From positions 1-38,454 of IMG/VR virus record IMGVR_UViG_3300032236_001456: a stretch of DNA of 38,454 nucleotides. One strand, given 5' to 3'. A model generated the notes under the pieces. The model had not been told where the DNA came from. It was given only the letters and a program-made list of their open reading frames with translations, and did no database searches. Below are positions 1,846 to 35,988 of the stretch, piece after piece. The DNA comes from a virus. The position numbers and the translations under genes were made by a program. Positions within the stretch are counted from its first letter, which is position 1. Each line of letters opens with the position of its first letter.

Positions 1846-3264
1846 TTATTTTATTTTACTCATCAAATCTTTCATTCTCTTAAATTGAGGATTCTCATAA
1901 GCTTTTGACTCAGCTAATACCTCTTGAGAAGATGATGTTGATGGAGTTGTAGAGATTTTTTCTGCAACTGCTTCGGTAACCGTAGTTTTACTACCTAATT
2001 CAGTTTTTATTGTATTGAACAAGCTTTTAGACTCATTTAATGAGTTAACTGTATCAAATCTCTTCAAAATGTTCAGTTTCTCTTGTTTTGTTGTTGAATG
2101 TTCTGTGAATAAACGTGTAGCGTAAGCTAAGTTTGCATTGAAAACAGCAACTTCATTAAGTTTATCCTTGAATAATACTAATGCCTTTTTATATTCAGCA
2201 TTTTGTTTTTTCAATGTTTCAACTTCTTCGTTGATTGTACCTGAACCAGCTTTGTATTTAGTTTTACTTTTTATACCAGCTCTGTTCATGTCATTTTTAT
2301 CTCCGTGTATGTTAGATTTAGTTCTAGCAGCTTCTGTTGCTTCAACTTTTTTGGCACTTTTTTCAAATGGTGCATTTTCATCTTCATGCACTTCTTTTTC
2401 AAAAGGTGCGTCTTCATCTTCATGCACTTCTTTTTCAAATGGTTCGTTTTCATCTTCATGAACATCTTTAGTCACCTTTGCTTTTTTACCAAATGGTGCG
2501 TTCTTATCTTCATGCACGTTTTTCTTAACTGTAGCCTTCTTTTCAAAAGGTGCGTCTTCAGTTTCGTTAACTTCCTTTTCAAATGGTGCGTCTTCGTCTT
2601 CATCTAACTCGATTTCGTATAATGTTTCTTCTGTAGGCATTGAACTTTCATCTGAAACACTAGATGATTCATCACTCATAGGAACTTCTTCCTCATCCAT
2701 TTCTGACTCATCTTCGTCATCTAATTTGATGATATACTCATCATCACCAACTCCGAATTCAAGTTTGTTACCGTCTTTTTTTACTACAATACCATCTTCT
2801 GGTTTCATAGCCTTGAATACTTTCATTACTTCATCATCTGAAGCGTTTGTCATATCCATAACGTCTTCACCTCCCATATCATCCATATCAGTGTCTTCTC
2901 CACCCATATCATCCATAGATGTATCGGTATCATCGGCAGCACCAAAATCGTCTGAATCGTCAGCACTTGTTTCGTCATTATCGAGGTTGTCTACATTTTC
3001 AGCATCGTCAGTATCATCAGCTTCTTCATCATCAGCTGTTTTACCTTCTTCGTCTGACATATCGTCTTTTTCCTCTTCTTCAGGTTTAGCGTCGTCTGCA
3101 GGTTGCTCGTCCACTTTTTCCTCTTCTTCCAATGATTCTTTAAGCAAGTCGCTTAGTTCTTCCTTCATAGTTGAAGCAAGTATACCTTTTGCATTTTGCT
3201 TAACAGCTTCTTCAAGTGTATTAATTTGAAGTAATGCTTGTTCTAAAATTGATTTTTCGCTCAT
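1846..3264 (-). CDS. Prohead core scaffold protein, gp22-like by position
   Basis: The 472-residue protein sits between protease and capsid genes, the place of gene 22 in T4. It is extremely acidic from residue 35 to about 220 (long Asp/Glu runs). At roughly residues 215-310 it carries six degenerate repeats around D-A-P-F-E-K, linked by V-H-E-D-E-N. The C-terminal 150 residues are helical, with NILKRFDTVNSLNESKSLF resembling the conserved tail of myovirus core proteins. Scaffolds of this type fill the prohead and are degraded by the gp21 protease. The repeat block is unusual and may vary between relatives. Assignment rests on position, charge and the C-terminal segment. Confidence 0.8.
   Translation of the reverse strand: MSEKSILEQALLQINTLEEAVKQNAKGILASTMKEELSDLLKESLEEEEKVDEQPADDAKPEEEEKDDMSDEEGKTADDEEADDTDDAENVDNLDNDETSADDSDDFGAADDTDTSMDDMGGEDTDMDDMGGEDVMDMTNASDDEVMKVFKAMKPEDGIVVKKDGNKLEFGVGDDEYIIKLDDEDESEMDEEEVPMSDESSSVSDESSMPTEETLYEIELDEDEDAPFEKEVNETEDAPFEKKATVKKNVHEDKNAPFGKKAKVTKDVHEDENEPFEKEVHEDEDAPFEKEVHEDENAPFEKSAKKVEATEAARTKSNIHGDKNDMNRAGIKSKTKYKAGSGTINEEVETLKKQNAEYKKALVLFKDKLNEVAVFNANLAYATRLFTEHSTTKQEKLNILKRFDTVNSLNESKSLFNTIKTELGSKTTVTEAVAEKISTTPSTSSSQEVLAESKAYENPQFKRMKDLMSKIK
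2350..2612 (-). repeat. Degenerate coding repeat in scaffold gene
   Basis: Six imperfect units encode D/N-A/E-P-F-E-K, separated by V-H-E-D-E-N-type linkers. Units at 2370-2460 are nearly identical in DNA (about 45-base period), the others have diverged. This suggests recent duplication within an acidic low-complexity region. Confidence 0.8.
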
Positions 3265-3350: not shown

Positions 3351-4034
3351 TTATTTACCTAAAAAATTGTCAAGTCTACCCATTAATTTCTTCATTCTGT
3401 CGTCAACAATAGGTTTTTCTTGAACTTCCTCTTGGAATTGATCTCTCTCTGACGGATCACTAAAAACATAGGCACCAGGAGTGGATGGCGAGGATACTAA
3501 ATCAAAACAAACTAATTCAAAATCGTCTTGTACAACGTTTTCGCCTTTAACTTGTTTTAATGAACCAACACCACGTGATGATATACCTAAGGTAGCACCA
3601 TTCATTAATAACATGGCAGCTTGATCACCTTTGGTTGATACAATACCCATTTTCTTCCAACCTGGTGATGTTAATAGTTTAATTTTACCCATTAACATTT
3701 TACCATCCCACCAAGTTTCAAGGATTGAATGTGATACTCTATCTAAATCAATTAATGAAGATGAAGGGTGATTTAATTCATTCAAAGCACTACCCTTCTT
3801 TATAACTTGTTGGTACTTTTCATTTTCCCTCATAAGAAGTGCTTTCGGATATATTCTTCCGTTCTTATTTGGAGTATCGTATTTTTGTAAAACGGCATAA
3901 AGGATAAGGTCTTGTGAAAAGTCCATATCCTTCATTTCCGCGATAATATTCTTATTTTCTTTTGGAGATACATGACCGGCGTCATACTCAATTAAAATTC
4001 CACGTCCGATCTCATTGGGTCCTAATATCTTCAT
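3351..4034 (-). CDS. Prohead maturation protease, T4 gp21-like
   Basis: This 227-residue protein matches the myovirus prohead serine protease family (T4 gp21, MEROPS S80 type). Visible motifs are ELNHP with the likely catalytic His89, LDRVSH next to it, and LGISSRGVGS with the likely nucleophile Ser152 or Ser153. The early segment NGRIYPKALL is also typical. It would sit in the prohead core and, after assembly, cleave scaffold and capsid after L/I-x-E. It lies directly upstream of scaffold and capsid, as in T4 (21-22-23). A TATTTATA box lies 16 bases before the ATG. Confidence 0.93.
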   Translation of the reverse strand: MKILGPNEIGRGILIEYDAGHVSPKENKNIIAEMKDMDFSQDLILYAVLQKYDTPNKNGRIYPKALLMRENEKYQQVIKKGSALNELNHPSSSLIDLDRVSHSILETWWDGKMLMGKIKLLTSPGWKKMGIVSTKGDQAAMLLMNGATLGISSRGVGSLKQVKGENVVQDDFELVCFDLVSSPSTPGAYVFSDPSERDQFQEEVQEKPIVDDRMKKLMGRLDNFLGK

Positions 4035-4071: not shown

Positions 4072-4497
4072 TTATTTCTTACTTTTATAAAAATTGAAGA
4101 GTTTTTTATCGGATAACCCTTCATCTATAGTTTGTTCAATAATATCTTTTATTAGAATTTTTATTTCTTTTGACTTAACATCAAATTGTTTATCCACATA
4201 TAAAGTCACTTCTAAATTCATGAATGATCGTTTCTCTAATTTGATACCTTTAGTTCGGATATCCAAATCAACAATACATTGTTCTCTGAAATGTGGATTT
4301 TTAAGATTATAGATAATTTCTTTAATTTTTCTTCTTGTTTTGTAAATTAAACTATCATAATCTTCCGTTTCATTTTCGGGTTGTACCCAAGAATTTAATT
4401 TTAAATAAATGGTTTTTAGATTTTTAAAATCTACGGTACCAAAACCGATTTTTACATCATTGTAAGTTCCTAAAGGAATATACTTACCAATTTTCAT
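4072..4497 (-). CDS. Hypothetical protein in head gene block
   Basis: A 141-residue protein, not recognised. It has no signal peptide or membrane segment. It alternates predicted strands and helices: an N-terminal IPLGTYNDVKIGFG, a basic middle (YKTRRKIKEI), and a helical end (LIKDIIEQTIDEGL). It is read in the same direction as protease and scaffold, 37 bases before the protease. That placement suggests a head or core role; in T4 the small core proteins gp67 and gp68 occupy the nearby interval. No sequence match to those can be claimed. Confidence 0.6.
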   Translation of the reverse strand: MKIGKYIPLGTYNDVKIGFGTVDFKNLKTIYLKLNSWVQPENETEDYDSLIYKTRRKIKEIIYNLKNPHFREQCIVDLDIRTKGIKLEKRSFMNLEVTLYVDKQFDVKSKEIKILIKDIIEQTIDEGLSDKKLFNFYKSKK

Positions 4498-4550: not shown

Positions 4551-4582
4551 TTGTTAATTCCAAAAATATTTTAATATATTTG
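4551..4582 (+). promoter_or_regulatory. Bacteroidetes-type promoter for bS21
   Basis: TTG at 4551-4553 and TATATTTG at 4575-4582, spaced by 21 bases, match the Bacteroidetes vegetative consensus TTG / TAnnTTTG. The ATG is at 4601, so the leader would be about 12 bases. No Shine-Dalgarno is present. Confidence 0.7.
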
Positions 4583-4600
4583 TAATATATTTATCTATAT

Positions 4601-4792
4601 ATGATTATAATTGATTTATCAAAAGAAAAAACTATTGAAAGTGCATTAAGAACTTATAAAAATAAAGTTCAAAAAACTAAGCAAATTCAAAAGTTAAGAG
4701 AAAGACAAGAGTTTGTAAAACCTTCTGTTAAGAAAAGAACAGAAAGATTAAAAGCTATCTATGTTGAACAAAAAAGAAATGGACTTAGTTAA
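4601..4792 (+). CDS. rpsU: Ribosomal protein bS21
   Basis: The 63-residue product aligns along its length with bS21: MIIIDLSKEKTIESALRTYK, then LRERQEF, KPSVKKR and a C-terminal LKAIY. bS21 binds the small-subunit platform beside the 3' end of 16S rRNA. In flavobacteria bS21, with bS18 and bS6, is reported to cover the anti-Shine-Dalgarno sequence; an aromatic residue near position 54 takes part, and here residue 54 is Tyr. The gene is on the opposite strand from the surrounding head genes, has its own promoter, and ends tail to tail with the 4785-5531 gene at a shared palindromic terminator. Phage-encoded bS21 is known from other large phages. It could replace host bS21 in ribosomes; that is inference. 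Confidence 0.92.
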   Translation: MIIIDLSKEKTIESALRTYKNKVQKTKQIQKLRERQEFVKPSVKKRTERLKAIYVEQKRNGLS

Positions 4793-4800
4793 GTCCATTT
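4777..4800. terminator. Bidirectional terminator between bS21 and head gene
   Basis: A perfect 11-bp inverted repeat (4777-4787 with 4790-4800) with flanking A and T runs. It includes both stop codons: bS21 stops at 4792 and the minus-strand gene at 4785, so the two genes overlap by 8 bases inside the hairpin. Confidence 0.85.
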
Positions 4801-5531
4801 TTTAATTCATTTAATCTGTAGTAATTATATCGTGACGGATACATCTGAGTTACCTCATCTTTAACCGTATTTAATTTATTGGATAAATCCGTTTCATTAG
4901 ATTCACTTATAAGTGTAGATACTTTATCAAGTATTGATTCTTTTAATTCATTTGTTTTAGATAATAATTCTTCGTAAGGAATTGATAAAATATTTTTTAG
5001 TTCTTCTTTTTCTGATTCTGATAACGTTTGATTATAGAGTACATTAAAGTTGTTAGCCAATACCGCATTAAGGAGGGTTTCATTTGGAACTAATGTTGTT
5101 TCTTTAGATTCTTTTATTTGTTTTTTAGTTGTTAAATGTTTAACTAATTTTTGTTTAGCAATAACTTTTTTCTCAATGTTTGATAATGTATCTTTTTCAG
5201 ATAACATATCTAAAGACTCATATAAATCATTTGTTGTTACTTCTTCATCACCCAATCTTTTGTTTAAAGATTCACAAAACATATTTAAATTACTCCAATT
5301 TCCTATTGGTTCACCAAAATATGTGCTTAAACCTTCAACATATAATTTTGCAGTTTCTTTATCTGAAATGTGTTTACCTTCAATTTCTTCATAAAACAAA
5401 TACATTTCTTTAAAATCTTTGTTTTCTTTAATTGTTGATAAAATATTTTTAATCTCAGCTTTATTTTCTTTAGCGTAAGATTCAGTTAATTTATTTAATA
5501 ATTTGGTTTTAATAACCCCGAATTTGTTCAT
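4785..5531 (-). CDS. Hypothetical head/core-associated protein
   Basis: A 248-residue, mostly helical, Lys/Glu-rich protein without signal or membrane segments; not recognised. It follows the portal gene with only 2 bases between, so the two are probably translated from one message. In T4 the genes after portal are the core proteins 67 and 68. Residues 15-17 are L-T-E (after LLNK), a possible prohead-protease site, and several other L-x-E sites follow. A core or internal head role is plausible by position only. Confidence 0.65.
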   Translation of the reverse strand: MNKFGVIKTKLLNKLTESYAKENKAEIKNILSTIKENKDFKEMYLFYEEIEGKHISDKETAKLYVEGLSTYFGEPIGNWSNLNMFCESLNKRLGDEEVTTNDLYESLDMLSEKDTLSNIEKKVIAKQKLVKHLTTKKQIKESKETTLVPNETLLNAVLANNFNVLYNQTLSESEKEELKNILSIPYEELLSKTNELKESILDKVSTLISESNETDLSNKLNTVKDEVTQMYPSRYNYYRLNELKNGLN

Positions 5532-5533
5532 TT

Positions 5534-7405
5534 TTAATCGTTTAAAATATCGTTCAATTTATTTTCTATTTCATAAATATTACGTTGAGCTCTTTCCATA
5601 TCAAATAAGACATCAAAGTCTTCTTTCTCATCGCCAAGCATACTTAATATTTTTGATTTTTTTGATTTGTTTAAAATTGATTCACTTAATGGTGCTGCTC
5701 CTCCAGTTTCACCTCCACCTCCACCTGCTGGTGGTTCTACTTCACCTAAAGAAGATTCACCTCCACCACCGCCACCCATTGGTGCTGCTCCACCTCCACC
5801 TGGTGCTTCACCCGCTAATGCTCCTGATTTTTCAAGTTTCTCTCTTTCTTCTTCAGGAATACCATATTTTGCGTCAACATCATCAAACACACCTGAACGT
5901 TTTATGATATTTTGTGTATTAGTTAATTCAAAACCTATTGCTCTTTCTAAACGTTGTTGTTGTAAATCAAGTACGACTTCACTATCACTAAATCCTAAAA
6001 TATTCTTCTTTGCCCATGTATGCGAAACAGGCAAGATACCAACTTGAGATTGGTCAGAAGTCGCATCTTTGTAAAGAGTAATCTTTTCCTTCCACTGTTC
6101 AAGTCTTAACAGATCAGACTGTGCTGATGGGTTTGTTAACGATAAAGAGAAATTGTTGTATTCATCTTCCATACCTAAAAGATATAAATGAATTAATGCA
6201 ACTTTATTTAACTCTTGTATTAATGATTTTTGTATTTTATTAATTGTTCTTGCAAAACGAATATCCATTAATGCAAGATTCTTTCCATCTCCCACTACTT
6301 CTTCAAATCCTAAAAATGCTTTAGGAATACGAAGTGCCGCCAACATTTTCTTTTGAATATATTCAATGTCCGCAATTTCACCTAAGTTTTGTGCACCTGG
6401 TAATGTTTCAATTGGCATTGTTTGTGCAGCATCACGTACAGGTACAAAATAATCTTGATCTACAGCCATTTGATTGTATCTCATATCTACCTGTCCATTA
6501 CGTGGATCTGATACTGGTTGACGTTTAAATTTGTTCGCAACTTTTTGTACATAAGGTTCAATATCCTTATCATCCATATTACCAACAAATACTTTGAACA
6601 CACGTCTTTCAGGTGCTCTTGAAGTTCTATAGATTAACATTGCATCTTCGGCAAGTAAAAGTTGTTTCCAAATACGTCTAATCTTATCTAACATAGAAGT
6701 ACCATATGGTAACTTTCTATCATCACCTAATAATCTAAAGTGTGCAACTTCCCAAGCTTGAAATTCTAAATCTTTATTCTTCCATTGAAATCTTAACTCT
6801 CTTGTTGGAACTTTAACATCTCTTTGATTTGGTGTTTTAGAAGAAGCACCTTCAATTCTTTCAATTTCAATATTTGGTAACTGTTGAACACCGACAATAC
6901 CTTTTTCAGGATCAATTTTTAAATAAACAAAATTGTCACCATATTTTGACATACCACGAGCCCACATTTGTAGGTTTGTATTAATATCCATTTTGGTATG
7001 AAACAAATCTGTTAATATAGTTTTAATTCTATCTGATTCAGAATATATTGTAAGAATTTCTCCTTTCTCTGACATTGTTGTTGACTCCTCTGCGTATATG
7101 TCTAATGCGGCGGAAACTTCAGGAGTAAACTCCATAGATTCATAATCGTAATATGCTGCTAATCTATTTGGTTCGTAGTAAACTGATTGATTGTAAAGAG
7201 ATGAGTCTATTTTTGTCCATTTGTCGGCAACGTATTGACTCTGTTGAGCCTGTAACATTGCCTTTTCATATTCTTCTCTACTATCTGTTTTTAATAATTC
7301 GTTTTTATCAAAATTAAACGAAGGTGCTTGTTCCGGTTTTGTTTGCCCCGGAAAACCAAACATTTTCGTAAGTTTCTGAAAAACAGTAGGATTTTGTTGT
7401 GCCAT
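5534..7405 (-). CDS. Portal protein, T4 gp20-like
   Basis: This 623-residue protein matches the T4-type portal family, the dodecameric ring at one head vertex through which DNA is packaged. Diagnostic stretches include YYDYESMEFTPEVSAALDIY (the gp20 region on alternating subunit states), WARGMSKYGDNFVYLKI, and LPYGTSMLDKIRRIWKQLLL followed by RAPERRVFKVFVG. Residues about 525-571 are an unusual Gly/Ala/Pro-rich linker with Gly runs, followed by a ~50-residue acidic helix. That C-terminal extension is not in T4. It lies between terminase and core genes, although tail sheath and tube genes are absent from the usual T4 interval. Confidence 0.95.
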   Translation of the reverse strand: MAQQNPTVFQKLTKMFGFPGQTKPEQAPSFNFDKNELLKTDSREEYEKAMLQAQQSQYVADKWTKIDSSLYNQSVYYEPNRLAAYYDYESMEFTPEVSAALDIYAEESTTMSEKGEILTIYSESDRIKTILTDLFHTKMDINTNLQMWARGMSKYGDNFVYLKIDPEKGIVGVQQLPNIEIERIEGASSKTPNQRDVKVPTRELRFQWKNKDLEFQAWEVAHFRLLGDDRKLPYGTSMLDKIRRIWKQLLLAEDAMLIYRTSRAPERRVFKVFVGNMDDKDIEPYVQKVANKFKRQPVSDPRNGQVDMRYNQMAVDQDYFVPVRDAAQTMPIETLPGAQNLGEIADIEYIQKKMLAALRIPKAFLGFEEVVGDGKNLALMDIRFARTINKIQKSLIQELNKVALIHLYLLGMEDEYNNFSLSLTNPSAQSDLLRLEQWKEKITLYKDATSDQSQVGILPVSHTWAKKNILGFSDSEVVLDLQQQRLERAIGFELTNTQNIIKRSGVFDDVDAKYGIPEEEREKLEKSGALAGEAPGGGGAAPMGGGGGGESSLGEVEPPAGGGGGETGGAAPLSESILNKSKKSKILSMLGDEKEDFDVLFDMERAQRNIYEIENKLNDILND

Positions 7406-7461: not shown

Positions 7462-9237
7462 TTATTTACCTCTACCAAATAACCAATTGTACTCTCTGTA
7501 GGCGTCTCTAGATGTATTCATAGGATTGTCCCTATGGAAAATATTATCATTATCCATACCCATTGTTCCAATTTGATCAAATGCTGTACCGTAAGAGTAA
7601 TGAGCCTTCGCGGGTTCATAAGTTCTTTCTGACATTGCCCAAGATTCAATCATTGCTTTATTTCTTGAATCATTTTTTTGTAATTGATTAAAAGATATAT
7701 CACCTGCATATAATGCCATAGACATACTCATAATTGAGTCATCATGTGCACCTTTCATGTGATCTGGTCTACCATTGATATAAACAAATGTGTTTAATTC
7801 ATTTAACAATCTTGACGATCTTACTAAAAACCCTTTTCTTAATTGTTCCTCAAAGGCGGCAACAATTTGAGTTCTTTTATTGTTAAAGTTTATACCTGGT
7901 ATTTTTTCCATTGCCTTTTTGTTATACTCCCATATATTTTGAGTATTAATACCATCTATGAATAAATTTCTATAATTTAATTCTTGTAACTTTCTTGATG
8001 TTGCAACACCCATACCGCCTGTAATATCAATTACAATAAAAGCATCGTACAAAATACCCCATTTGTATGCTATGTTAGCCAAATCATCAGGAGGAATCTT
8101 ACCAATGTATTCTACAACTTGTTCTCTTTCATCAAAATCAATAATATTAATAGATGAAAAGTCTTCACTATCTCCTCTACTAACGTCAACACCCATAATA
8201 TAACGATGTCCTTGTACAGGTTCTTTCCATTGCCAAAATGTTCCTTGCATATATTTTTCTTTAGGAACACGTACCATATTTTTAGCAATATTTTCTTGTA
8301 TATCGCCAGGTATTACACCATCACCTGAACCTAAAAAGTCACACTCTAATTCTTGAGAAATTTTACGTCTATCGTATAAGAATTTTTTAGACATTTTTTC
8401 AAACCAAGATGAAAATGGTTTATATCCATTTTCTAAATGTTTGTTATAATCTTTTAATTCTAAATCATATCTTACAACTTCATCATCATTGTATTGTTCC
8501 CTATTTAACATGTAATGAACAATATCACTACATTTAACCCAACATAAATCTTTTGTATAACGTGGATCTTTAAACCATCTTAAATCTGTAATATGAAAAT
8601 CATTCATACCACGTATTGCTTGATCATAAACACCATAGTAAATTGGATCGTAACCATTTGGAGTCGAGATAAGAATAATCTTACCACCCGTTGATAACGA
8701 CGCCATAGAAGCAGCCCAAAAATCTTCACCCGCTTCAATATATGCCGCCTCGTCAAATACAAGTATTGTAGGTGTATAACCACGTAACGCATCGGGTGAT
8801 GTTGCAACCGCTTTTACCTCACAACCATTATTTAATCTAAATCTACTTTCTGAGTTTTTATCAGGTGAAAATCCTACGTTAATCCAATCAGGCCATTGTT
8901 CTAAGAAATGTCTTACCTTGTTAGCCATCTCCACTGCAGTATCACGTTTGTTTGCAATAAGCAAAACTCTTTCAGGATTTTCAGGTTTAGCAAGTTGTAA
9001 TTTCTTAGACAACCACGCTGCAGTTACTGTAGTAACCCCCGCCTGTCTATACTTTCTTGTTATGTTTTCGTTGTAATCTTCGTAGTCCTTAATTAGTTGA
9101 ATCTGATCTTCAAACAAATCCATTGGAACATACTTTTTTTGTGTATTGTCAAATGTTTGTAGATAAGTTCTTAATGCATATGGCGTGTCTTTCATAATCT
9201 TCGCCAATTCCTTCAACTGTTCAATTCTTGAATTCAT
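7462..9237 (-). CDS. Terminase large subunit, T4 gp17-like
   Basis: This 591-residue packaging motor has an ATPase and a nuclease domain. The Walker A region is RKYRQAGVTT (61-70), where the usual G-K-T lysine is replaced by Val and a Lys lies at position 62, a deviant P-loop as in some terminases. Walker B is ILVFDEA (158-164) and the coupling motif is ILISTPNG (188-195). The nuclease acidic residues are in GVDVSRGD (D351), VIDITGGMG (D404) and HDDS (D499/D500). It would dock on the portal and translocate and cut concatemeric DNA. The gene precedes the portal as in T4, but without the sheath and tube genes between. Confidence 0.95.
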   Translation of the reverse strand: MNSRIEQLKELAKIMKDTPYALRTYLQTFDNTQKKYVPMDLFEDQIQLIKDYEDYNENITRKYRQAGVTTVTAAWLSKKLQLAKPENPERVLLIANKRDTAVEMANKVRHFLEQWPDWINVGFSPDKNSESRFRLNNGCEVKAVATSPDALRGYTPTILVFDEAAYIEAGEDFWAASMASLSTGGKIILISTPNGYDPIYYGVYDQAIRGMNDFHITDLRWFKDPRYTKDLCWVKCSDIVHYMLNREQYNDDEVVRYDLELKDYNKHLENGYKPFSSWFEKMSKKFLYDRRKISQELECDFLGSGDGVIPGDIQENIAKNMVRVPKEKYMQGTFWQWKEPVQGHRYIMGVDVSRGDSEDFSSINIIDFDEREQVVEYIGKIPPDDLANIAYKWGILYDAFIVIDITGGMGVATSRKLQELNYRNLFIDGINTQNIWEYNKKAMEKIPGINFNNKRTQIVAAFEEQLRKGFLVRSSRLLNELNTFVYINGRPDHMKGAHDDSIMSMSMALYAGDISFNQLQKNDSRNKAMIESWAMSERTYEPAKAHYSYGTAFDQIGTMGMDNDNIFHRDNPMNTSRDAYREYNWLFGRGK

Positions 9238-11846: not shown

Positions 11847-12932
11847 TTAGTGTTTAAAATATTTACTTAATGTTTCACCTATTGCGTTTTTTATTTCATC
11901 CAAATCAATTTCTTCTAAATGTTCTTCACCATGTGATCCAATTTCTGGACGTTTTTTTTCGTTCATATCACCATGTTCTAAATCAGCATGATTTGACATA
12001 TCGTCCGCCTCATCAGCATATTTTGATAAATCTATTTCATTGTAATCATGAGGTGTAGGAGAGTTAATGAATTCATCTAAAGAATTCATGGCGTCTTCAT
12101 TCATATCTGATTCAGGTGCTGGATGTGGAGGTAAGTCACTTGTTGTGTCGTCTGAAGATGGTTCTGAAGGTGTTTCAGTACCTCCGTCTTTTCCTTCTTC
12201 ATCTCTGTCAAATTTCTTTCCAATTTCTTCTATATCTTCATCTGATAATTTATCTAAATCAATGGCAGATATAATCATATTCAAAACATATTTGATATCA
12301 TCACTTTCCATTCTATCATGTAAATCCCTCAATTCTTGTCCTAATTTACCAGCATATTTTTGTACTTCTGCCATATAATCAGAACGTTTTGGAGGTCCTT
12401 GTTCTTCACCATCGTCTGTTGATGGTGCATCTGATGGTGTACCATCAGTTGGAGCAGAACCCATATCATCTGTAGGTGCAGCCGCATCAGGTGCAGGTGC
12501 TGAACCCATATCATCTGTAGGTGGTGCAGGAGGTGGAGGAGGAGTATCTAAAGATGGTTCAGGCATAGGAGCCTCATCTTGCATTGGTTTGTTTTGTTTT
12601 AAAACATACTTTGTTGCCTCTTGTAATTCCTCTTGTCCTTTAATAAGTTCAAGTCTTTTAAACGCCTCAGCGTAAGAAGAGAATTTGTTTTTGTTTTTCA
12701 TGTACATACCACCGATGTAATCAAGTGATTGTTCATTTAATCCTCTTTTAACATAGTACGCATCTTTTTCTTTGACGATACCATATACACCACCAACTTT
12801 TGATTCGCTTACTAATTCAGCTTTAGAAGTTGTGGTTTTCTTATTATTGTTGAAGTAGGTTAACTCAAGAATTCTTTTTAATTTCTCATCTGAGTTTAAT
12901 TTTTCACTACCAAGGGGTTTTAAATCTGCCAT
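11847..12932 (-). CDS. Hypothetical acidic Pro/Asp-rich protein
   Basis: A 361-residue protein. Residues 1-110 are globular (KLKRILELTYFNNN, then VYGIVKEKDAYYVKRGLNEQ). Residues 120-175 contain a Pro run and two copies of PTDDMGSAP. A helical part follows (LGQELRDLHDRMESDDIKYV), then another acidic low-complexity section. No signal peptide. It is the first gene of the coupled run toward the terminase, with a TATTTATA box 33 bases upstream. Function unknown; a structural or assembly role is suggested by context. Confidence 0.6.
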   Translation of the reverse strand: MADLKPLGSEKLNSDEKLKRILELTYFNNNKKTTTSKAELVSESKVGGVYGIVKEKDAYYVKRGLNEQSLDYIGGMYMKNKNKFSSYAEAFKRLELIKGQEELQEATKYVLKQNKPMQDEAPMPEPSLDTPPPPPAPPTDDMGSAPAPDAAAPTDDMGSAPTDGTPSDAPSTDDGEEQGPPKRSDYMAEVQKYAGKLGQELRDLHDRMESDDIKYVLNMIISAIDLDKLSDEDIEEIGKKFDRDEEGKDGGTETPSEPSSDDTTSDLPPHPAPESDMNEDAMNSLDEFINSPTPHDYNEIDLSKYADEADDMSNHADLEHGDMNEKKRPEIGSHGEEHLEEIDLDEIKNAIGETLSKYFKH

Positions 12933-15028: not shown

Positions 15029-15391
15029 TTAGTTTAAGGAGATTAACCTTTCTAAAGCTTTCTTTTTGTCAATTGGTAAAGTCAATGTTAAAACACCGTT
15101 TTCAACTCTACCTATAATGTCCTTCTCTTTAACATCATCAGGAATGTTATAAGATTTTGTAAAATTACTTACAAATGGATTTGTGCTTTCTTCAGATTTT
15201 TCAAAAGTAATTTTTAAAATTCCTTCTTTTGTTAGAATTTTTAAATCGTCTTTTGTTAAACCTGGAACACTCATTGACAATTCATATTCGTTATCTGTTT
15301 TACGAATATTTGTTTGTGGTGTGTTAAAACGAGGAGTATCTAATACTCTGTCGATTGCCTCAAAAAATGGGTCTTTGAATAATGTTATCAT
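15029..15391 (-). CDS. Small heat shock protein (Hsp20/alpha-crystallin)
   Basis: I start this gene at the internal Met at 15391 (MITLFKDPFFEAIDRVL), giving 120 residues. The upstream in-frame extension to 15433 adds only a non-homologous stretch. The alpha-crystallin domain is clear: YELSMSVPGLTKDDLKI, a middle ILKITFEKSEE, and the signature GRVENGVLTLTLP near the end. These proteins hold unfolding proteins in a refoldable state and work with disaggregases. The gene is divergent from the ClpC-like gene across a ~155-base spacer, so the two may be co-regulated. Confidence 0.9.
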   Translation of the reverse strand: MITLFKDPFFEAIDRVLDTPRFNTPQTNIRKTDNEYELSMSVPGLTKDDLKILTKEGILKITFEKSEESTNPFVSNFTKSYNIPDDVKEKDIIGRVENGVLTLTLPIDKKKALERLISLN

Positions 15392-15493
15392 AATATATAA
15401 TTTTTTATAAAATATAATCAAATTTTTTGCCATTTGATTTTTTTAGACAATATGACATATTTTTTTAATGTGAAAAGACATTTTGTCTTCAAT

Positions 15494-15546: not shown

Positions 15547-17565
15547 ATGTCAGTAGATTTTTTTGAAGATGGTCCTACCATCAACCCTAAGAAAACTAAG
15601 AAAGGTTCAAACACACCAATCTTAGATAATTTTTCAAGAGACTTAATTAAACTTGCCGAAGAAGGTAAAATTGATCCTGTCATTGGTAGAGATAAAGAAG
15701 TTAAAAGAATTGCACAAATTCTTTCACGTAAAAAGAAAAACAATGCAGTTATTGTGGGTGATGCTGGTGTAGGTAAATCTGCACTAGTTGAAAAACTTGC
15801 ACTAATGGTTGTTAAAGGTGATTGTCCTACAAATCTTTTAGATAAGAGAATTATGTCTTTAGATTTAACATCTCTTGTTGCCGGTACAAAATATCGTGGG
15901 CAATTTGAAGAACGAATTAAAGCAATATTAAATGAATTACAAGAAGCACCAAATGTAATTGTTTTTATAGATGAATTACATACAATGGTAGGTGCTGGTA
16001 ATGCGAGTGGTTCTATGGATGCTGCTAATATTTTAAAACCTGCATTAGCTAGAGGTGAAATACAAGTAATTGGTGCAACAACTTTAGATGAGTATAAAAA
16101 ATCAATTGAAAAAGATGCCGCATTGGTTAGAAGATTTCAAAAAATAATTTTAAGAGAACCTACACCTTCTGAAACAATTGAAATTTTAAAAAATCTTCAA
16201 GACTCATATGAAAATTTTCATAGAGTAAAATATGAAGATGGTGTAATTGATACAATTGTAAAATTAAGTCATCGTTATATTACTGAAAGACAATTTCCCG
16301 ATAAGGCAATAGATGTCTTGGATGAATTAGGTTCTGAAAAAAGAGTTTCAACAAGAATTCCCGAATCAATTGAAAAATTAAAAAAACAAATTGATGAAAT
16401 TAAAGAAAAGAAATTACAAGTTGTAAAACAACAAATCTACGAGCAGGCTGCCAAATTAAGAGATGAGGAAAGAAAACTATTTGAGAAGTTAGAAAAAGAA
16501 AAGGAAAATTGGGCAATCAAACAAAAAGATAATAAGGTACCGGTAACCATTGATGATGTATATGAAATAATTTCACAAATTACCGAAGTCCCGATTACTA
16601 AATTAGATACTAAAGAAACTCAAAAGTTATTAAAACTTGAAGAAACATTATCAACAAAAGTTATTGGACAAGATGAGGCAATAACTTCAATATCAAAAGC
16701 GATTAGAAGAAATCGTGTGGGAATTAAAGATGCTAATAAACCAATTGGTTCATTTATATTTTTAGGTTCTACTGGTGTTGGTAAAACTTTTTTAGCAAAA
16801 ACTTTAGCGGATATACTATTTGGTGATCAAGATAAAATTATTCGTGTTGATATGAGCGAATACATGGAGAAACATAATGTATCAAAATTAATTGGTTCAC
16901 CTCCAGGTTACGTTGGTTATGATGAAGGTGGACAATTAACTGAAAAAGTTAAGAACAATCCATTCTCAGTAATTTTATTTGATGAAATTGAAAAAGCACA
17001 TAAAGATGTATTCAATTTATTATTACAAATATTGGACGAAGGACATCTTACAGATTCTTTTGGAAGAAAAGTAAATTTCACAAACTGTCTTATTATTCTT
17101 ACCTCAAATATTGGAGCTAAACGTGTTGCTGAATTTGGTGGTGGAGTTGGATTTAGTACATCATCAAGTGAAGTACAAAAATATGAAGTAAGAAAAACTA
17201 TGATTCAAAAGGCATTAAAACAACAATTTAATCCTGAATTTTTAAATCGTATTGATGATACAATTTTATTCAACGCTTTAAATGAAGAAACTTTAAAGAA
17301 GATTATTTCTATTGAAATTAATAAACTAGTTGAAAGACTTAAAGATAAAGGTTACAAAATTACATTTGATAAAACAATTGTTGCAAGAGTTTTTGAATTG
17401 AATAATCAAGAAGAATATGGTGCACGTCCAATTAAAAGAATTATTCAAAACTTATGTGAAGATTTTTTAAGCGATGAAATACTCAAAGGTAATATTGTTG
17501 AAAATATTCCTGTGACTTTAAAATACAAAGACGAAAAACTTACGTATGTGAAAAAAATTGTATAA
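15547..17565 (+). CDS. ClpC-like AAA+ unfoldase lacking the N-domain
   Basis: This 672-residue Hsp100 ATPase has two AAA+ modules: Walker A at 71-78 (GDAGVGKS) with Walker B FIDELHT, and Walker A at about 407-414 (GSTGVGKT) with Walker B LFDEIEKAH near 475. Between them is a short coiled middle domain with a UVR-like segment (YEQAAKLRDEERKLFEKLE). V534-G535-F536 forms the loop that lets ClpC dock on ClpP. The first ~30 residues replace the ~145-residue double-repeat N-domain of bacterial ClpC, and homology starts at TPILDNFSRDL. It would therefore keep ATPase and ClpP contact but lose normal adaptor and substrate docking. It was probably captured from a host clpC. Confidence 0.93.
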   Translation: MSVDFFEDGPTINPKKTKKGSNTPILDNFSRDLIKLAEEGKIDPVIGRDKEVKRIAQILSRKKKNNAVIVGDAGVGKSALVEKLALMVVKGDCPTNLLDKRIMSLDLTSLVAGTKYRGQFEERIKAILNELQEAPNVIVFIDELHTMVGAGNASGSMDAANILKPALARGEIQVIGATTLDEYKKSIEKDAALVRRFQKIILREPTPSETIEILKNLQDSYENFHRVKYEDGVIDTIVKLSHRYITERQFPDKAIDVLDELGSEKRVSTRIPESIEKLKKQIDEIKEKKLQVVKQQIYEQAAKLRDEERKLFEKLEKEKENWAIKQKDNKVPVTIDDVYEIISQITEVPITKLDTKETQKLLKLEETLSTKVIGQDEAITSISKAIRRNRVGIKDANKPIGSFIFLGSTGVGKTFLAKTLADILFGDQDKIIRVDMSEYMEKHNVSKLIGSPPGYVGYDEGGQLTEKVKNNPFSVILFDEIEKAHKDVFNLLLQILDEGHLTDSFGRKVNFTNCLIILTSNIGAKRVAEFGGGVGFSTSSSEVQKYEVRKTMIQKALKQQFNPEFLNRIDDTILFNALNEETLKKIISIEINKLVERLKDKGYKITFDKTIVARVFELNNQEEYGARPIKRIIQNLCEDFLSDEILKGNIVENIPVTLKYKDEKLTYVKKIV

Positions 17566-18005: not shown

Positions 18006-18431
18006 ATGGATACTGTTGAAAAACAAGGTGAATTAATATTATTAAGAGGATTACCCGGTTCAGGAAAATCAACATTAGCAAAAATCATATTACAAATAAG
18101 AGACACGGATGAACCTGAAGTTTTATCTGCCGATGATTTTTTTATGACTAATAACGGAACATACGAATTTGATCCTGAAAAATTAAAAGAAGCACACAAT
18201 TATTGTCAATTTAGATGTTCGGAAAGAATGAGACAACAGAAAGCAAGAATCGTTGTTGCGAATACCTTTACCCAAGAATGGGAAATGAAAATTTATTTTG
18301 ACATGGCAGAAAGATATAACTACAGAGTACACACAGTTATAGTAGAAAATAGACATGGTAGTGATAATGTACATGGTGTACCTGAAGATAAACTCCAAAA
18401 AATGAAGGAGCGTTTTGAAATAAAATTATAA
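18006..18431 (+). CDS. P-loop polynucleotide kinase-like protein
   Basis: The 141-residue protein has a Walker A motif GLPGSGKST (15-23) and the pattern of the AAA_33 / N4BP2-like kinase group: LSADDFF, HNYCQFRCSERMRQQ, a mid-chain IVVANTFTQEWE, and ENRHGSDNVHGVPEDKL. These enzymes resemble the 5'-kinase half of T4 polynucleotide kinase; there is no attached phosphatase domain. It begins a plus-strand run leading to an RNA ligase and a cREC-like protein, which makes 5' end repair of cut RNA the most likely role. Confidence 0.8.
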   Translation: MDTVEKQGELILLRGLPGSGKSTLAKIILQIRDTDEPEVLSADDFFMTNNGTYEFDPEKLKEAHNYCQFRCSERMRQQKARIVVANTFTQEWEMKIYFDMAERYNYRVHTVIVENRHGSDNVHGVPEDKLQKMKERFEIKL

Positions 18432-18432: not shown

Positions 18433-18678
18433 ATGAGTCAATTCATTAAATCTTATTTTTTAACGACACCACAAAAAAACACAATTATGAAATTTTATTC
18501 TAATACACATAAAAATCAATGGGCGGTTTTCCCATTACCTTTTGCATATTTTTATTTTGAAACTTGTCATCCAGATTCACACGTTCCACTTTTAAAAAAT
18601 AAAATTTGTGGATTGTATTTGTCATTTAATTTTTTAAAATGGACATGGAACGTTGGATTTTTTAAACCATTAAATTAA
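18433..18678 (+). CDS. Hypothetical protein in RNA-repair operon
   Basis: An 81-residue aromatic-rich protein, not recognised. It contains KNQWAVFPLPFAYFYFE and CGLYLSFNFLKWTWNVGFF, with no clear signal peptide. It starts one base after the kinase stop, and its TAA overlaps the ligase ATG by one base (TAATG), so it is coupled to the repair enzymes. An alternative start is Met19. Confidence 0.6.
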   Translation: MSQFIKSYFLTTPQKNTIMKFYSNTHKNQWAVFPLPFAYFYFETCHPDSHVPLLKNKICGLYLSFNFLKWTWNVGFFKPLN

Positions 18679-19751
18679 TGTTAGAAATTTTAGAGAAATA
18701 TCATCAAGATGGTTTGTTACATAAACAAACACATCCTACAAAAGATTTGACTATATGGAACTATTCACCAAAAGTTCAATATGAAAGATTATGGGATGAT
18801 ATCACTATACAATGCCGTGGATTAGTTACTAATTCAAAAGGTGATATTGTTGCAAGACCATTTAAGAAATTTTTTAATTACGAAGAACATAAACCAGAAG
18901 ATATTCCAAATGAACACTATGAAGTGTTTGAAAAAATGGATGGATCTTTAGGTGTTCTTTTTAATTATGAAAATGAATGGATAATGGCAACACGTGGTTC
19001 ATTTACATCACCACAAGCAATTAAAGGAAAAGAAATTTTAGATAAAAAATATGACATTAGTTCTTTAAGAAAAGATAATACTTTATTGTTTGAGATTATC
19101 TACCCTGAAAATAGAATTGTTGTTGATTATGGGCAAGAAGAAAAATTAGTTTTGCTTGGCGGATTCCATACTGAAACTGGTATTGAAATACCATATAGTT
19201 CATTATTCTTTATGACTGAATGTGGATTTGAATTAGTTGGTCTTTGGAAGACTTGGGATGAAGATTGGAAAACTCTTCAAAAAGAAATATCAAAACAAAA
19301 TGAAGGTTATGTAGTTCGTTTTAAAAATGGTTTTCGTATGAAAATCAAAGGAGATGAATATGTAAGATTACATAAACTATTAACTAATATTTCTTCAAGA
19401 GATATATGGGAACATCTTAAAGATCAAAAATCATTAGAGGATATCATTAGTGATGTACCTGATGAATTTTATGATTGGGTTAAAAAAACTGCCATGGATT
19501 TGAACTATGCTTGTTATCAATTGAGGGAAACGGCGGGAAAGTTACATGATGGTTTTAGATATGGAAAATTTGGTGATAGAGATCCTGAACCTACAAAAAA
19601 AGAATTTGCAGAATTCGTAATGAAACAACAAGAAGTTTTAAGACCAATTATGTTTGCAATGTGGAATAAGAATAATGAAACAGTTGATAAAATAATTTGG
19701 AAAACAATAAAACCAAAATACACAAAACCATTTAAAAAAGATGAAAATTAA
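18678..19751 (+). CDS. RNA ligase, T4 Rnl1-type
   Basis: The 357-residue enzyme contains the nucleotidyltransferase motifs of ATP-dependent RNA ligases: motif I KMDGS with the adenylated Lys86, a motif III-type stretch LLFEIIYPENRIVVDY, motif IV EGYVVRF and motif V MKIKGDEYVRLHK. The spacing and the NRIV segment fit the T4 Rnl1 family rather than Rnl2. In T4, Rnl1 with polynucleotide kinase repairs tRNA cut by host anticodon nucleases. Here it lies between a kinase-like gene and a cREC-like gene, overlapping the latter by 11 bases. Confidence 0.92.
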   Translation: MLEILEKYHQDGLLHKQTHPTKDLTIWNYSPKVQYERLWDDITIQCRGLVTNSKGDIVARPFKKFFNYEEHKPEDIPNEHYEVFEKMDGSLGVLFNYENEWIMATRGSFTSPQAIKGKEILDKKYDISSLRKDNTLLFEIIYPENRIVVDYGQEEKLVLLGGFHTETGIEIPYSSLFFMTECGFELVGLWKTWDEDWKTLQKEISKQNEGYVVRFKNGFRMKIKGDEYVRLHKLLTNISSRDIWEHLKDQKSLEDIISDVPDEFYDWVKKTAMDLNYACYQLRETAGKLHDGFRYGKFGDRDPEPTKKEFAEFVMKQQEVLRPIMFAMWNKNNETVDKIIWKTIKPKYTKPFKKDEN

Positions 19752-23114: not shown

Positions 23115-23290
23115 ACACTTTTAGTTAAAATTGCTGTTAATAAATAACCTGTTATTATTGGGATTGGTGAAAATATTAAAAAAGTAAATAATAATCTCCA
23201 CACTAAAGGGTCAATATTTGTTTTATGACTTAAGCCACCACAAACACCAAAAAAAATTCTATCGTCATATATTCTATAAAATTTTTTCAT
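23111..23290 (-). CDS. PspC-domain membrane protein
   Basis: A 59-residue protein read from the ATG at 23290. It carries the PspC signature RIFFGVCGGLSHKTNIDP, then VWRLLFTFLIF and a hydrophobic GYLLTAIL segment. Bacterial PspC proteins are small inner-membrane proteins linked to envelope stress. The coding frame is supported by tight coupling: its ATG overlaps the stop of the Ntn-hydrolase gene by one base and its TGA overlaps the next ATG by 4 bases. Confidence 0.8.
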   Translation of the reverse strand: MKKFYRIYDDRIFFGVCGGLSHKTNIDPLVWRLLFTFLIFSPIPIITGYLLTAILTKSV

Positions 23291-24261
23291 TATGTTGGTA
23301 ATTTATTTCCTTTATCGTCATGAGTTCTTTCTCCTTCAATTTTAATTTTTATTTTAGGAGAATAACCTTTTGGTAATCTATTATCAATCCCCTCAAATTT
23401 ACCCATTTCATTATCCATTCTAACTGTCACTTCTTTCTTTTCCAAATTCATCATAATCTGTCCGACTGTTGACATATTATATTGATTTTTCATTCTATAT
23501 GGATTAAAGAACTTATTTTTATCATATTGTTCTTTCATTCTATCAATAACTTCTTGATCTGTTTTTACGTCTTTTAAATGTTCCTTTGCATATTTCATTC
23601 TCAAATGAGATGATTTCTTTTTAATACCGTGAGTATAACCTGCTTGTTCATGAGATATACCATGATTAGTCCTCACATCAACTTTTTCATCTTTACTAAA
23701 TTTATGAATAATAGGACTATCCTTACTTGTCATTTCAATAACAAATATGTTTCTTGGACTAGCAACAAACGTTTCACCTTTAACACCTACTTTCTTTTTA
23801 TCTCCAGCATCATATGATATTATTGATTTTATAATATCTCTCATTTTTGTATATGTTAATGCCTTTCTTAATTTAGCACCATCAGATGCACTTATTTTTT
23901 TTTCGGTACCATCATTTTTAATTAATGGTTTATCCTTTTTTTCTCTTTGTTTTTTTTCAATTTTATCACTTTCTTTTTCATCTTGTCTAACTAGTAAACT
24001 TGAATTGACAATTCCAAATCCATATTCATTCATACCTTCCGACCAATCCGTATCAATATCTCTCCAATATACCATTTCCACATTATCTACAATTTCGTGA
24101 ACAACTTCCATTTTAGCAACATATCCTCTATCTCTATTTTTTGCCAACACAATTCCATCATTTAAACGAACCGCAGCAATTGTACATTCTTCAATTACAT
24201 CTAATTTAGATTCTTTTAACATTTCTAAATGTTCTAATACAATTTTTTCAATCTTTTCCAT
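23290..24261 (-). CDS. Predicted Ntn hydrolase (C45/C59-like)
   Basis: The 323-residue protein has features of N-terminal-nucleophile amidohydrolases: a propeptide-like stretch of 25 residues ending E-E, then Cys26 in CTIAAVRLNDGIVLAKNRDR, with N-R-D at 42-44. Further on come MNEYGFGIVNSSLL and a VRTNHG segment followed by KKSSHLRMKY, matching the TNH and SS-x-x-R pattern of the C45 acyltransferase group. The family cleaves linear amide bonds and matures by self-cleavage before Cys. A Lys-rich insert lies around 95-130. No signal peptide, so probably cytoplasmic. The substrate is unknown. Confidence 0.65.
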   Translation of the reverse strand: MEKIEKIVLEHLEMLKESKLDVIEECTIAAVRLNDGIVLAKNRDRGYVAKMEVVHEIVDNVEMVYWRDIDTDWSEGMNEYGFGIVNSSLLVRQDEKESDKIEKKQREKKDKPLIKNDGTEKKISASDGAKLRKALTYTKMRDIIKSIISYDAGDKKKVGVKGETFVASPRNIFVIEMTSKDSPIIHKFSKDEKVDVRTNHGISHEQAGYTHGIKKKSSHLRMKYAKEHLKDVKTDQEVIDRMKEQYDKNKFFNPYRMKNQYNMSTVGQIMMNLEKKEVTVRMDNEMGKFEGIDNRLPKGYSPKIKIKIEGERTHDDKGNKLPT

Positions 24262-34325: not shown

Positions 34326-34401
34326 CTAGATGTAGAGGAGTCAGGCTTTTCTCGCTGCTTTTGGAAAGCAGAACACGTTGGTTCGAATCCAGCCATCTAG
34401 A
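34326..34401 (+). tRNA. tRNA-Pro(TGG)
   Basis: Full cloverleaf. Acceptor CTAGATG pairs with CATCTAG, anticodon loop TTTGGAA between CTGCT and AGCAG, T loop TTCGAAT. CCA is not encoded. Reads codon CCA. Confidence 0.9.
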
Positions 34402-34408
34402 CAACATA

Positions 34409-34479
34409 TCCGGTTTGGTGCAAAGGTAGCATATAAGTCTCCAAAACTTCAGATGTGGGTTCAATTCCTACAACCGGTG
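34409..34479 (+). tRNA. tRNA-Trp(CCA)
   Basis: Acceptor TCCGGTT with AACCGGT (first pair mismatched), anticodon loop CTCCAAA, T arm GTGGG TTCAATT CCTAC. The weak end pair is the only oddity. Confidence 0.8.
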
Positions 34480-34484
34480 CAAAG

Positions 34485-34555
34485 TGTCCTTTAGTATAGC
34501 GGTAGTACACGTGAATTTGGATCACGTAGCTGTGGTTCAAATCCATGAGGGACAA
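34485..34555 (+). tRNA. tRNA-Gln(TTG)
   Basis: Acceptor TGTCCTT with AGGGACA, anticodon loop ATTTGGA between CGTGA and TCACG, T loop TTCAAAT. Confidence 0.9.
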
Positions 34556-34561
34556 CAAAAA

Positions 34562-34630
34562 TGCGGGGAGGAGGGTTCCCGACCAGTCTCATAAGCTGTG
34601 TTTTTCCGGTTTCGACTACCGGCCCCGCAA
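34562..34630 (+). tRNA. tRNA with CAT anticodon (Met or Ile2), degenerate D arm
   Basis: Acceptor TGCGGGG with CCCCGCA, like bacterial initiator tRNA but with a paired 1-72. Loop CTCATAA. D arm is poorly formed and T stem has T-A at the usual G53-C61 position. Which CAT tRNA it is cannot be told. Confidence 0.7.
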
Positions 34631-34662
34631 CTAAAATATATAATATGAAAAAACAACATGAC

Positions 34663-34687
34663 ATGCATTAGGTAAACCTAATAGCAT
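34663..34687 (+). promoter_or_regulatory. Hairpin covering a start codon
   Basis: ATGC-ATTAGG pairs with CCTAAT-(A)-GCAT around a TAAA loop. The ATG at 34686-34688 is in the base of the stem, so translation of the 34686 ORF could be limited by the fold. Confidence 0.45.
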
Positions 34688-34880
34688 GAAAGCAAAGAGA
34701 AAAAATGGTAAAGTTGCCAAATCAACTACTCATAACAAAGAGTATAAAATTATCACAGCACCGGACAAATATGAAGGTGATTGGGATTATGGTTGGAATT
34801 TTCATCACGGAAATTTACCAAATCATAAATGGAGAGAATTTAGAACGTGGAAACACAGTAGAAAGTCTCAATGGAAGTAA
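34686..34880 (+). CDS. Small basic Trp-rich protein
   Basis: 64 residues lying between tRNA genes. The N-terminus is basic (MKAKRKNGKVAKSTTHNKEY); the rest is rich in Trp and His (DWDYGWNFHHGNLPNHKW, then REFRTWKHSRKSQWK). Not recognised. The charge suggests nucleic-acid binding. The start codon is inside a hairpin stem. Confidence 0.6.
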   Translation: MKAKRKNGKVAKSTTHNKEYKIITAPDKYEGDWDYGWNFHHGNLPNHKWREFRTWKHSRKSQWK

Positions 34881-34884
34881 ATAA

Positions 34885-34956
34885 GGTTTCTTGGTGTAAC
34901 GGATAGCACGAAACACTACGAATGTTTTAGTAAAGGTTCAAATCCTTTAGAAACCT
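34885..34956 (+). tRNA. tRNA-Arg(ACG)
   Basis: Acceptor GGTTTCT with AGAAACC, D stem GTGT/GCAC, anticodon loop CTACGAA between AAACA and TGTTT, T arm AAAGG TTCAAAT CCTTT. An ACG anticodon needs host A-to-I editing to read all CGN codons. Confidence 0.85.
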
Positions 34957-34958
34957 CT

Positions 34959-35010
34959 GTTCACTTTATACCCCTTGTTCACGGACAGTGTTCAAACCAA
35001 TAAAGTGAAC
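34959..35010. repeat. 11-bp inverted repeat left of HNH gene
   Basis: GTTCACTTTAT (34959-34969) and ATAAAGTGAAC (35000-35010). Further GTTCAC and TGAAC half-sites lie between it and the HNH ORF, and a related palindrome is found at 35530-35547. Confidence 0.75.
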
Positions 35011-35064
35011 GTTCATAACTTTTTTTAAATGAACAGATATTTATTATGAACAAATTATTATATT

Positions 35065-35508
35065 ATGATATGTACAAAGTGTAAAATAGATAAGTCAACT
35101 GAATCATTTAGAAAAAGAAAAGATACCACATCAGGATACCAATACTGGTGTAAAGATTGTGAAAGATTCGCCAACCAAAATCGTTACATCAAAAAGTCTA
35201 AACAACCAAAAAAAGAAATTGATAAAGATAAAATTAAATTAGAAGCATTAAAAAGAATGTTAAAATATAGATATAATTTATCTTATGAAGATTATATTGG
35301 TATGTATGAGAAACAAAACCAAAATTGCTCTGTTTGTGAAAAACATTTTCAACTTGGTGGATATAGAGGACTTTATGTTGATCATTGTCATACGACGGGT
35401 AAAGTTAGAGGATTACTTTGTTCATGTTGTAATAATGGAACATATATTTTTGAGAATGAAACATTAAGAAAACGAATGTTTTCTTATTTAGGTATTGATA
35501 ATCAATAA
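35065..35508 (+). CDS. HNH / endonuclease VII-like homing nuclease
   Basis: 147 residues. A zinc-finger-like N-terminus (CTKCKID and CKDCERF) is followed by LSYEDYIGMYEKQNQNCSVC, then YVDHCHTTGKVRGLLCSCCN, the recombination-endonuclease-VII (His-Me finger) signature with catalytic D-H-x-H and paired Cys for zinc. Such genes often act as homing endonucleases in phages. It sits alone between tRNA-Arg and a small basic ORF, flanked by GTTCAC/GTGAAC palindromes, which fits a mobile insertion into the tRNA region. Confidence 0.85.
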   Translation: MICTKCKIDKSTESFRKRKDTTSGYQYWCKDCERFANQNRYIKKSKQPKKEIDKDKIKLEALKRMLKYRYNLSYEDYIGMYEKQNQNCSVCEKHFQLGGYRGLYVDHCHTTGKVRGLLCSCCNNGTYIFENETLRKRMFSYLGIDNQ

Positions 35509-35529
35509 CCTTGCACATTTTTTATTTAA

Positions 35530-35564
35530 GTTCACGATTTCGTGAACAAACAAAAAAAGTGAAC
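35530..35564. repeat. Palindrome and half-site right of HNH gene
   Basis: GTTCACGA (35530-35537) pairs with TCGTGAAC (35540-35547); a further GTGAAC is at 35559-35564. It shares the GTTCAC core with the left repeat at 34959. Followed by A and T runs, so it could also be the HNH terminator. Confidence 0.7.
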
Positions 35565-35607
35565 AAAAAAAAGATCTAGAATATTTTTTTTAATAAAAAT
35601 ATTTGTA

Positions 35608-35615
35608 TATCTTTG
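35608..35615 (+). promoter_or_regulatory. Promoter -7 box before small basic ORF and tRNAs
   Basis: TATCTTTG, a perfect TAnnTTTG match, 21 bases before the ATG at 35637. No clear TTG at the -33 position, so it may be weak or activator dependent. Confidence 0.5.
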
Positions 35616-35636
35616 TAAAACAATAAACTTTTAACT

Positions 35637-35757
35637 ATGGCTAAAACGTCAAGAAGAGTTGCAAAAAAAAGCTAGTAAAGCTTTAAGAAGTAAAAGAACA
35701 AGTAAGACTACAAAAACCCTTGCTGGTTCAGCTTTAAGACAACGTAGAAGAAAGTAA
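35637..35757 (+). CDS. Small basic protein, frame broken at an A8 run
   Basis: From the ATG the frame stops after 12 codons (TAG at 35673). Skipping one A in the run 35663-35670 restores a frame ending at 35757. The joined product would be MAKTSRRVAKKASKALRSKR, then TSKTTKTLAGSALRQRRRK, 39 very basic residues. It resembles a widespread family of small Lys/Ser proteins ending in AGSAL-x-Q. Either slippage or frameshifting makes the protein, the gene is broken, or the run was misread. It ends 3 bases before a tRNA. Confidence 0.6.
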
Positions 35758-35760
35758 TAA

Positions 35761-35833
35761 GCCTGAGTAGCTCAGTTGGTAGAGCAGCAGTTTTGTAAAC
35801 TGCCTGTCGCTAGTTCGATTCTAGTCTTAGGCT
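35761..35833 (+). tRNA. tRNA-Thr(TGT)
   Basis: Acceptor GCCTGAG with CTTAGGC, D arm GCTC/GAGC, anticodon loop TTTGTAA between GCAGT and ACTGC, T loop TTCGATT. Confidence 0.95.
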
Positions 35834-35840
35834 CTTTGAG

Positions 35841-35907
35841 ACTAATCCAAACGAGGACTTTGTCAACCAGATCAGTGAATCGGAGGTGCAATTTAAGTTG
35901 GGTTAGT
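35841..35907 (+). ncRNA. Candidate structured RNA between tRNA-Thr and tRNA-Asn
   Basis: A 67-base element closed by an 8-bp stem (ACTAATCC with GGGTTAGT). Inside are small hairpins such as GAC-TTT-GTC, GAT...ATC and CAA...TTG. No T loop, so not a tRNA. Weaker than the 35994 element. Confidence 0.4.
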
Positions 35908-35916
35908 ATCAAACAC

Positions 35917-35988
35917 GCTTTCCTAGCTCAGAGGTAGAGCACATCACTGTTAATGATGGGGTCGGGATATCGTAATTCTCGGAGAGCG
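35917..35988 (+). tRNA. tRNA-Asn(GTT) with enlarged T loop
   Basis: Acceptor GCTTTCC with GGAGAGC, D arm GCTC/GAGC, anticodon loop CTGTTAA between CATCA and TGATG. The T arm CGGGA/TCTCG closes a 9-base loop (TATCGTAAT) rather than the usual 7. Confidence 0.8.

Follow-up and report, generated by a model that had tools for sequence, protein, structure and literature searches.

In F. johnsoniae, the ribosomal protein bS21 hides the anti-Shine-Dalgarno (anti-SD) sequence, and ribosomes lacking bS21 initiate poorly on mRNAs without an SD (PMC9976891). McNutt et al. 2023 showed that the F. johnsoniae bS21 gene, rpsU, is autoregulated: its SD is an extended one, and ribosomes without bS21 are those that translate it best (PMC9976891). 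They expected the rpsU loop of the host to act as a counter-defense, and they discuss phage bS21 but not the leader of the phage gene (PMC9976891). On the phage side, Chen et al. 2022 described 47 genomes in which bS21 is flanked by two hypothetical families and is read in the opposite direction to TerL, portal, protease, and MCP (PMC9723584). The hosts are Bacteroidetes. Tyr54 is present in 54 of 61 phage bS21s, with an aromatic residue in the remainder, and the divergence of the phage protein falls in its N-terminal region. Expression is late, together with the structural genes, and the protein was proposed to enter ribosomes and favor phage transcripts. No bS21 was seen below about 70% TerL similarity (PMC9723584). 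Of all ribosomal proteins, bS21 is the one that phages carry most often, and the question is why.

The window analyzed here is the whole of IMGVR_UViG_3300032236_001456, a linear viral record of 38,454 bases. Its T4-like head genes lie on the minus strand, as follows: MCP gp23 (65–1819); a 472-aa gene in the scaffold position (1846–3264); the S77 prohead protease (3351–4034); a 141-aa hypothetical (4072–4497); a 248-aa hypothetical in the position of a T4 prohead core gene (4785–5531); the gp20 portal (5534–7405); and TerL, the terminase large subunit (7462–9237). Amid these, bS21 (rpsU-like; 4601–4792) is the sole plus-strand gene, divergent from the 141-aa gene and convergent with the 248-aa gene. 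For the 141-aa protein, no Pfam family scored over its cut-off and no PDB fold matched at E 0.001 or better; its AlphaFold model has a pLDDT of 75, and the nearest fold is that of an uncharacterised myovirus protein (TM 0.68). Comparison of the 248-aa protein with PHROG gave no credible match. Elsewhere in the window, 11 tRNA genes are clustered on the plus strand (34326–37393). A T4 gp63-like RNA ligase/tail fibre attachment catalyst (18678–19751, PHROG 562) adjoins a polynucleotide-kinase-like ATPase (18006–18431), and the two may be a tRNA repair pair.

The first-pass annotation had recognized a complete phage-encoded bS21, with Tyr54, opposite the head genes, and this is borne out. The 63-aa protein scores 45.6 bits against PF01165 (cut-off 27), with residues 7–54 covered. 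Counting residues directly places Tyr at position 54, and so does aligning the protein with F. johnsoniae bS21 (chain 7jil_z). The host set used for comparison consists of 80 cellular bS21 genes, those closest in sequence to that of the phage. The phage protein retains the residues invariant across these 80 genes, Tyr54 among them. Tyr54 and Lys27 are found in 40 of 40 distinct phage bS21 proteins, whereas 79 of the 80 host genes have Gly27. The class-diagnostic residues lie in the N-terminal half: the phage proteins have K8, E9, K10, R17, T18, V23, and K27 where the hosts have E/D8, G9, E10, K17, R18, F23, and G27. The bS21 frame is not a chance one, as it is kept in all related loci examined and is under purifying selection (median dN/dS 0.126). 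In a tree of 104 rows and 64 columns, the phage bS21s form one supported clade (98/99); an alignment this short settles few of the host forks, and the tree points to no host.

Close relatives of this bS21 are encoded in 286 viral stretches recovered by a first scan; 80 of these were fetched, plus two from a second scan. The order MCP–472 aa–protease–141 aa–bS21 (opposite strand)–248 aa–portal–TerL is found in all fetched relatives, as far as the contigs reach. A Flavobacterium bS21 query then gave a sister clade (L165–L184), two members of which, L183 and L167, have bS21 in the same place and orientation as the window. Their identity to the window is 60% for portal, 57% for TerL, 53% for protease, 39–40% for the 141-aa protein, and 28–30% for the 248-aa protein. 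Since bS21 is kept in a clade with 57% TerL identity, the arrangement is older than Chen et al. could see. In the window and the related loci alike, bS21 has two hypotheticals as neighbors and runs against TerL, portal, protease, and MCP. The window is a further member of the group of bS21-encoding Bacteroidota jumbo myoviruses that Chen et al. described in 2022, and one of their genomes may lie close to it. Some candidates were set aside. L185–L187 are helicase-like false matches, and L164 was excluded as an independent phage copy of a Flavobacterium gene because this viral record holds a chromosomal bS21–tyrosine recombinase–ribosome-hibernation-factor-like region. The L164 bS21 has His54, and its gene has no SD.

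To assess the SD, we paired the 16S tail GAUCACCUCCUUUCU with the 25 nt preceding each start codon. All 15 Flavobacteriaceae rpsU leaders pair at −20.1 to −21.6 kcal/mol and all 15 Cyclobacteriaceae leaders at −18.8 to −19.7 kcal/mol. In the host set as a whole, 48 of 80 leaders are at −8 kcal/mol or below, and the 32 SD-less genes are mostly from Prolixibacteraceae, with some others. Among 43 distinct phage bS21 leaders, none is at −8 kcal/mol or below, the best being −6.3. The leader in the window pairs at −0.6 kcal/mol and has nothing like the extended SD of the autoregulated rpsU; the leaders of the sister clade are also without an SD. The contrast between phage and host is unchanged across the 16S tail and leader lengths tried. 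Thus, the lack of an SD in the phage bS21 leader, set against a strong SD in many likely hosts, is a new, if small, comparative result. The other genes of the window are likewise SD-less (45 starts, best pairing −6.8 kcal/mol). In a 735-kb huge phage (LR756501.1, L198), bS21 has the SD AAAGGAGG, which pairs at −12.1 kcal/mol, unlike four other bS21 genes checked from phage records, which are without one.

Upstream of bS21, the window reads TTG-N21-TATATTTG on the plus strand. The TTG (4551–4553) is a candidate −33 element, TATATTTG (4575–4582) is a host-type −7 box (TAnnTTTG), and CCAAAAAT (4560–4567) is a block conserved upstream of bS21. A further element, TATTTATC (4588–4595), is phage-type and promoter-like, lies 5 nt before the ATG, and has one mismatch from TATTTATA, which is taken up below. 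If a host-type promoter is a −33 TTG and a −7 TAnnTTTG some 17–23 nt apart, the window has both, of which the −7 box is conserved and the −33 element mostly not. That is, of 41 distinct sequences upstream of phage bS21, 35 contain TAnnTTTG, but only 10 of these 35 have a TTG at 19–22 nt from the box. In 32 of the 35, TAYTTATH lies 3–7 nt before the bS21 ATG (shuffle mean 2.0, maximum 7). No TAnnTTTG was found upstream of the neighboring head genes, bS21 alone having the box there. In the sister clade, the leaders shown have the phage-type element and no TAnnTTTG; leaders of this clade carry TATTTATT.

The bS21 promoter region therefore appears to be a tandem one, in which a phage-type element follows a host-like −7 box. 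Such a pair would fit use by both a host-type and a phage-modified polymerase, and would also fit the late expression reported by Chen et al. On the reverse strand, CCAAAAAT reads ATTTTTGG, which may serve the divergent 141-aa gene. A general middle-promoter class of the form CCAAAAAT-TATATTTG was considered and rejected, because a search of six records gave one or two matches in each, with the CCAAAAAT form once per record, at bS21. Among the 45 genes, only one besides bS21 has TAnnTTTG in the 45 nt before its start: a Clp-type AAA+ ATPase (15547–17565), with a TTG-N20-TATGTTTG match upstream. An Hsp20 gene (15029–15433) diverges from the ATPase gene, both being proteostasis genes.

TATTTATA itself is likely a phage promoter element. 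It occurs 12 times over both strands of the window, and the 45 nt ahead of 8 gene starts contain it (shuffle mean 0.9, maximum 4): those of the 472-aa gene, protease, portal, and TerL, and of the genes at 11847–12932, 23290–24261, 37395–38024, and 38063–38251. Among distinct upstreams of the relatives, it precedes the 472-aa gene in 16 of 16, the protease in 36 of 37, the portal in 32 of 33, and TerL in 26 of 26, and it is never found before the MCP, 141-, 248-, or 451-aa genes. A literature search for TATTTATA as a published phage promoter gave no relevant paper. At the portal and TerL genes of the relatives, TATTTATA ends 3–6 nt before the ATG. It follows that, if TATTTATA is a promoter, the mRNA leaders of these genes would be very short, or near-leaderless.

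These elements bear on three earlier descriptions of the locus. bS21 was said to have its own host-type promoter, which is half right: the −7 box is there, but the −33 TTG is mostly not kept, and a TAYTTATH element precedes the ATG. It was also placed inside a head operon. bS21 does sit among head genes, but "operon" is a loose term, because the protease, portal, TerL, and 472-aa genes each have their own TATTTATA and a terminator parts the 451-aa gene from TerL. The description of the phage genes as leader-poor is plausible, from sequence, for TerL and portal.

At its 3′ end, bS21 overlaps the 248-aa gene by 8 nt within a palindrome (4774–4803, both strands). This hairpin, with T-runs on either side and both stop codons inside, is predicted to be a bidirectional terminator. 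Read either way, the palindrome codes for NGL[SN] and a stop, so that both proteins share the C-terminus NGLx. Among the relatives, it has 12 variants, with 99.4% of cells paired and two pairs changed on both sides. Chen et al. suggested that conserved C-termini help phage bS21 to replace the host protein (PMC9723584). For the last bS21 residues in the window clade, a constraint at the DNA or RNA level would account for the conservation at least as well.

We propose, with a probability of roughly 60%, that the window encodes a functional bS21 that enters host ribosomes, keeps the anti-SD hidden, and is made outside the host's SD feedback loop. The sequence-level support comprises the bS21 family, Tyr54, position, orientation, synteny, purifying selection, and the lack of an SD. 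The protein would be made late and would join host 30S subunits lacking bS21 or exchange with host bS21. Entry of a phage bS21 into E. coli ribosomes is credited to Mizuno et al. 2019 by the papers that cite it (PMC9723584, PMC9976891). Tyr54, predicted to stack on A1534 of 16S rRNA, would tuck the anti-SD away, and ribosomes would stay competent for SD-less mRNAs, including those of all phage genes seen here. As Tyr54 and the invariant residues are kept and the phage genes are SD-less, the phage bS21 is expected to support SD-independent initiation like F. johnsoniae bS21 (PMC9976891). Further, since its leader has no SD, we infer, as a new point, that its synthesis would be independent of bS21-free ribosomes and would not be throttled once ribosomes are replete.

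The first-pass annotation had suggested that the phage may secure SD-independent translation of its leader-poor genes by supplying bS21. The phage is of Bacteroidota type, Tyr54 and the host-invariant residues are kept, and there are 45 SD-less starts, all of which agree with the suggestion, but it is neither distinctive nor new, Chen et al. 2022 having put it forward for this phage group. Nearly all host genes are SD-less too, and thus supplying bS21 does not by itself favor phage mRNAs.

In SD-bearing hosts, rpsU would be turned down while phage bS21 fills the ribosomes, so that the phage protein would come to dominate. Only tentatively do we extend this to the proposal that the decoupled phage copy, translated by replete ribosomes, fills them and shuts off host rpsU, converting the ribosomes without a protease or exchange factor. 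If true, a phage copy that escapes the loop would make it work against host rpsU, a possible route to displacing host bS21. The SD-bearing bS21 of LR756501 counts against SD-decoupling. In addition, 32 of the 80 host genes have no SD, so that the phage leader could descend from such a host or be adapted to one, and the lack need not be selected, since SD-less is the default for phage genes.

Other uses of the protein have to be weighed. The phage copy may be a simple top-up: host synthesis falls late, new 30S subunits are left without bS21, and the phage protein keeps them competent, with neither selectivity nor interference with the loop. We consider this quite possible, though short of an even chance. 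SD-less mRNAs are poorly initiated by bS21-less ribosomes (PMC9976891), and the conserved residues of the phage protein are those common to hosts; however, bS21-less ribosomes should induce host rpsU, and as long as host mRNA is still present the phage supply would be partly superfluous. Selectivity is the essence of the specialized ribosome of Chen et al. 2022, in which phage bS21 replaces the host protein and an altered N-terminal helix gives a preference for phage mRNAs. The class-diagnostic residues do cluster in the N-terminal half, where Chen et al. also saw the phage proteins diverge, and in their data bS21 is expressed late along with structural genes (PMC9723584). Yet no phage-specific leader feature was found for the protein to read, the phage genes being SD-less like host genes, and the divergence may reflect drift or escape from host control. 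We find this reading rather doubtful.

The strict place of bS21 among head genes in two clades might instead hint at a use outside the ribosome, e.g., binding RNA or being packaged into virions in connection with the head genes; the packaging idea was raised by Chen et al. (PMC9723584). Such a role is very improbable, as all residues of ribosomal function, including Tyr54, are kept and position alone is uninformative on function. With a strong SD in many hosts and in 0 of 43 phage leaders, the question of why phages so often carry bS21 becomes open to a simple test with existing F. johnsoniae strains and reporters.

How, then, does the locus compare with known systems? Pelagibacter phage HTVC008M also encodes a bS21, and for its entry into E. 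coli ribosomes both PMC9723584 and PMC9976891 cite Mizuno et al. 2019 (PMC6375957). The host of that phage is of another phylum. Two queries of phage records found no cultivated Bacteroidota phage with a bS21 of the window type. Flavobacterium phage immuto (NC_055915) has the order TerL–portal–three hypotheticals–protease–scaffold-position gene–MCP, but that stretch has no annotated bS21, and the window bS21 matches nothing in the immuto genome.

The closest likeness is to clades a–e of Chen et al. (PMC9723584), with the same bS21 place and strand, Tyr54 or another aromatic residue, and a Bacteroidetes-type bS21. A related contig here is 335,630 bp, as against 293–331 kbp for their complete genomes. 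The phage bS21 arrangement and the idea of ribosome entry are thus already in print (Chen et al. 2022). What is new is the comparison of SD-less leaders, the half-conserved promoter, and the two-way terminator; promoters, bS21 leaders, and autoregulation are not mentioned in that paper (PMC9723584), and leaders and promoters are compared here. With host rpsU of the F. johnsoniae type (PMC9976891), the phage gene shares the family, the length class, Tyr54, and the common invariant residues. It differs in having no SD, whereas host rpsU is autoregulated through an extended one, and the phage protein carries K27 and other N-terminal changes.
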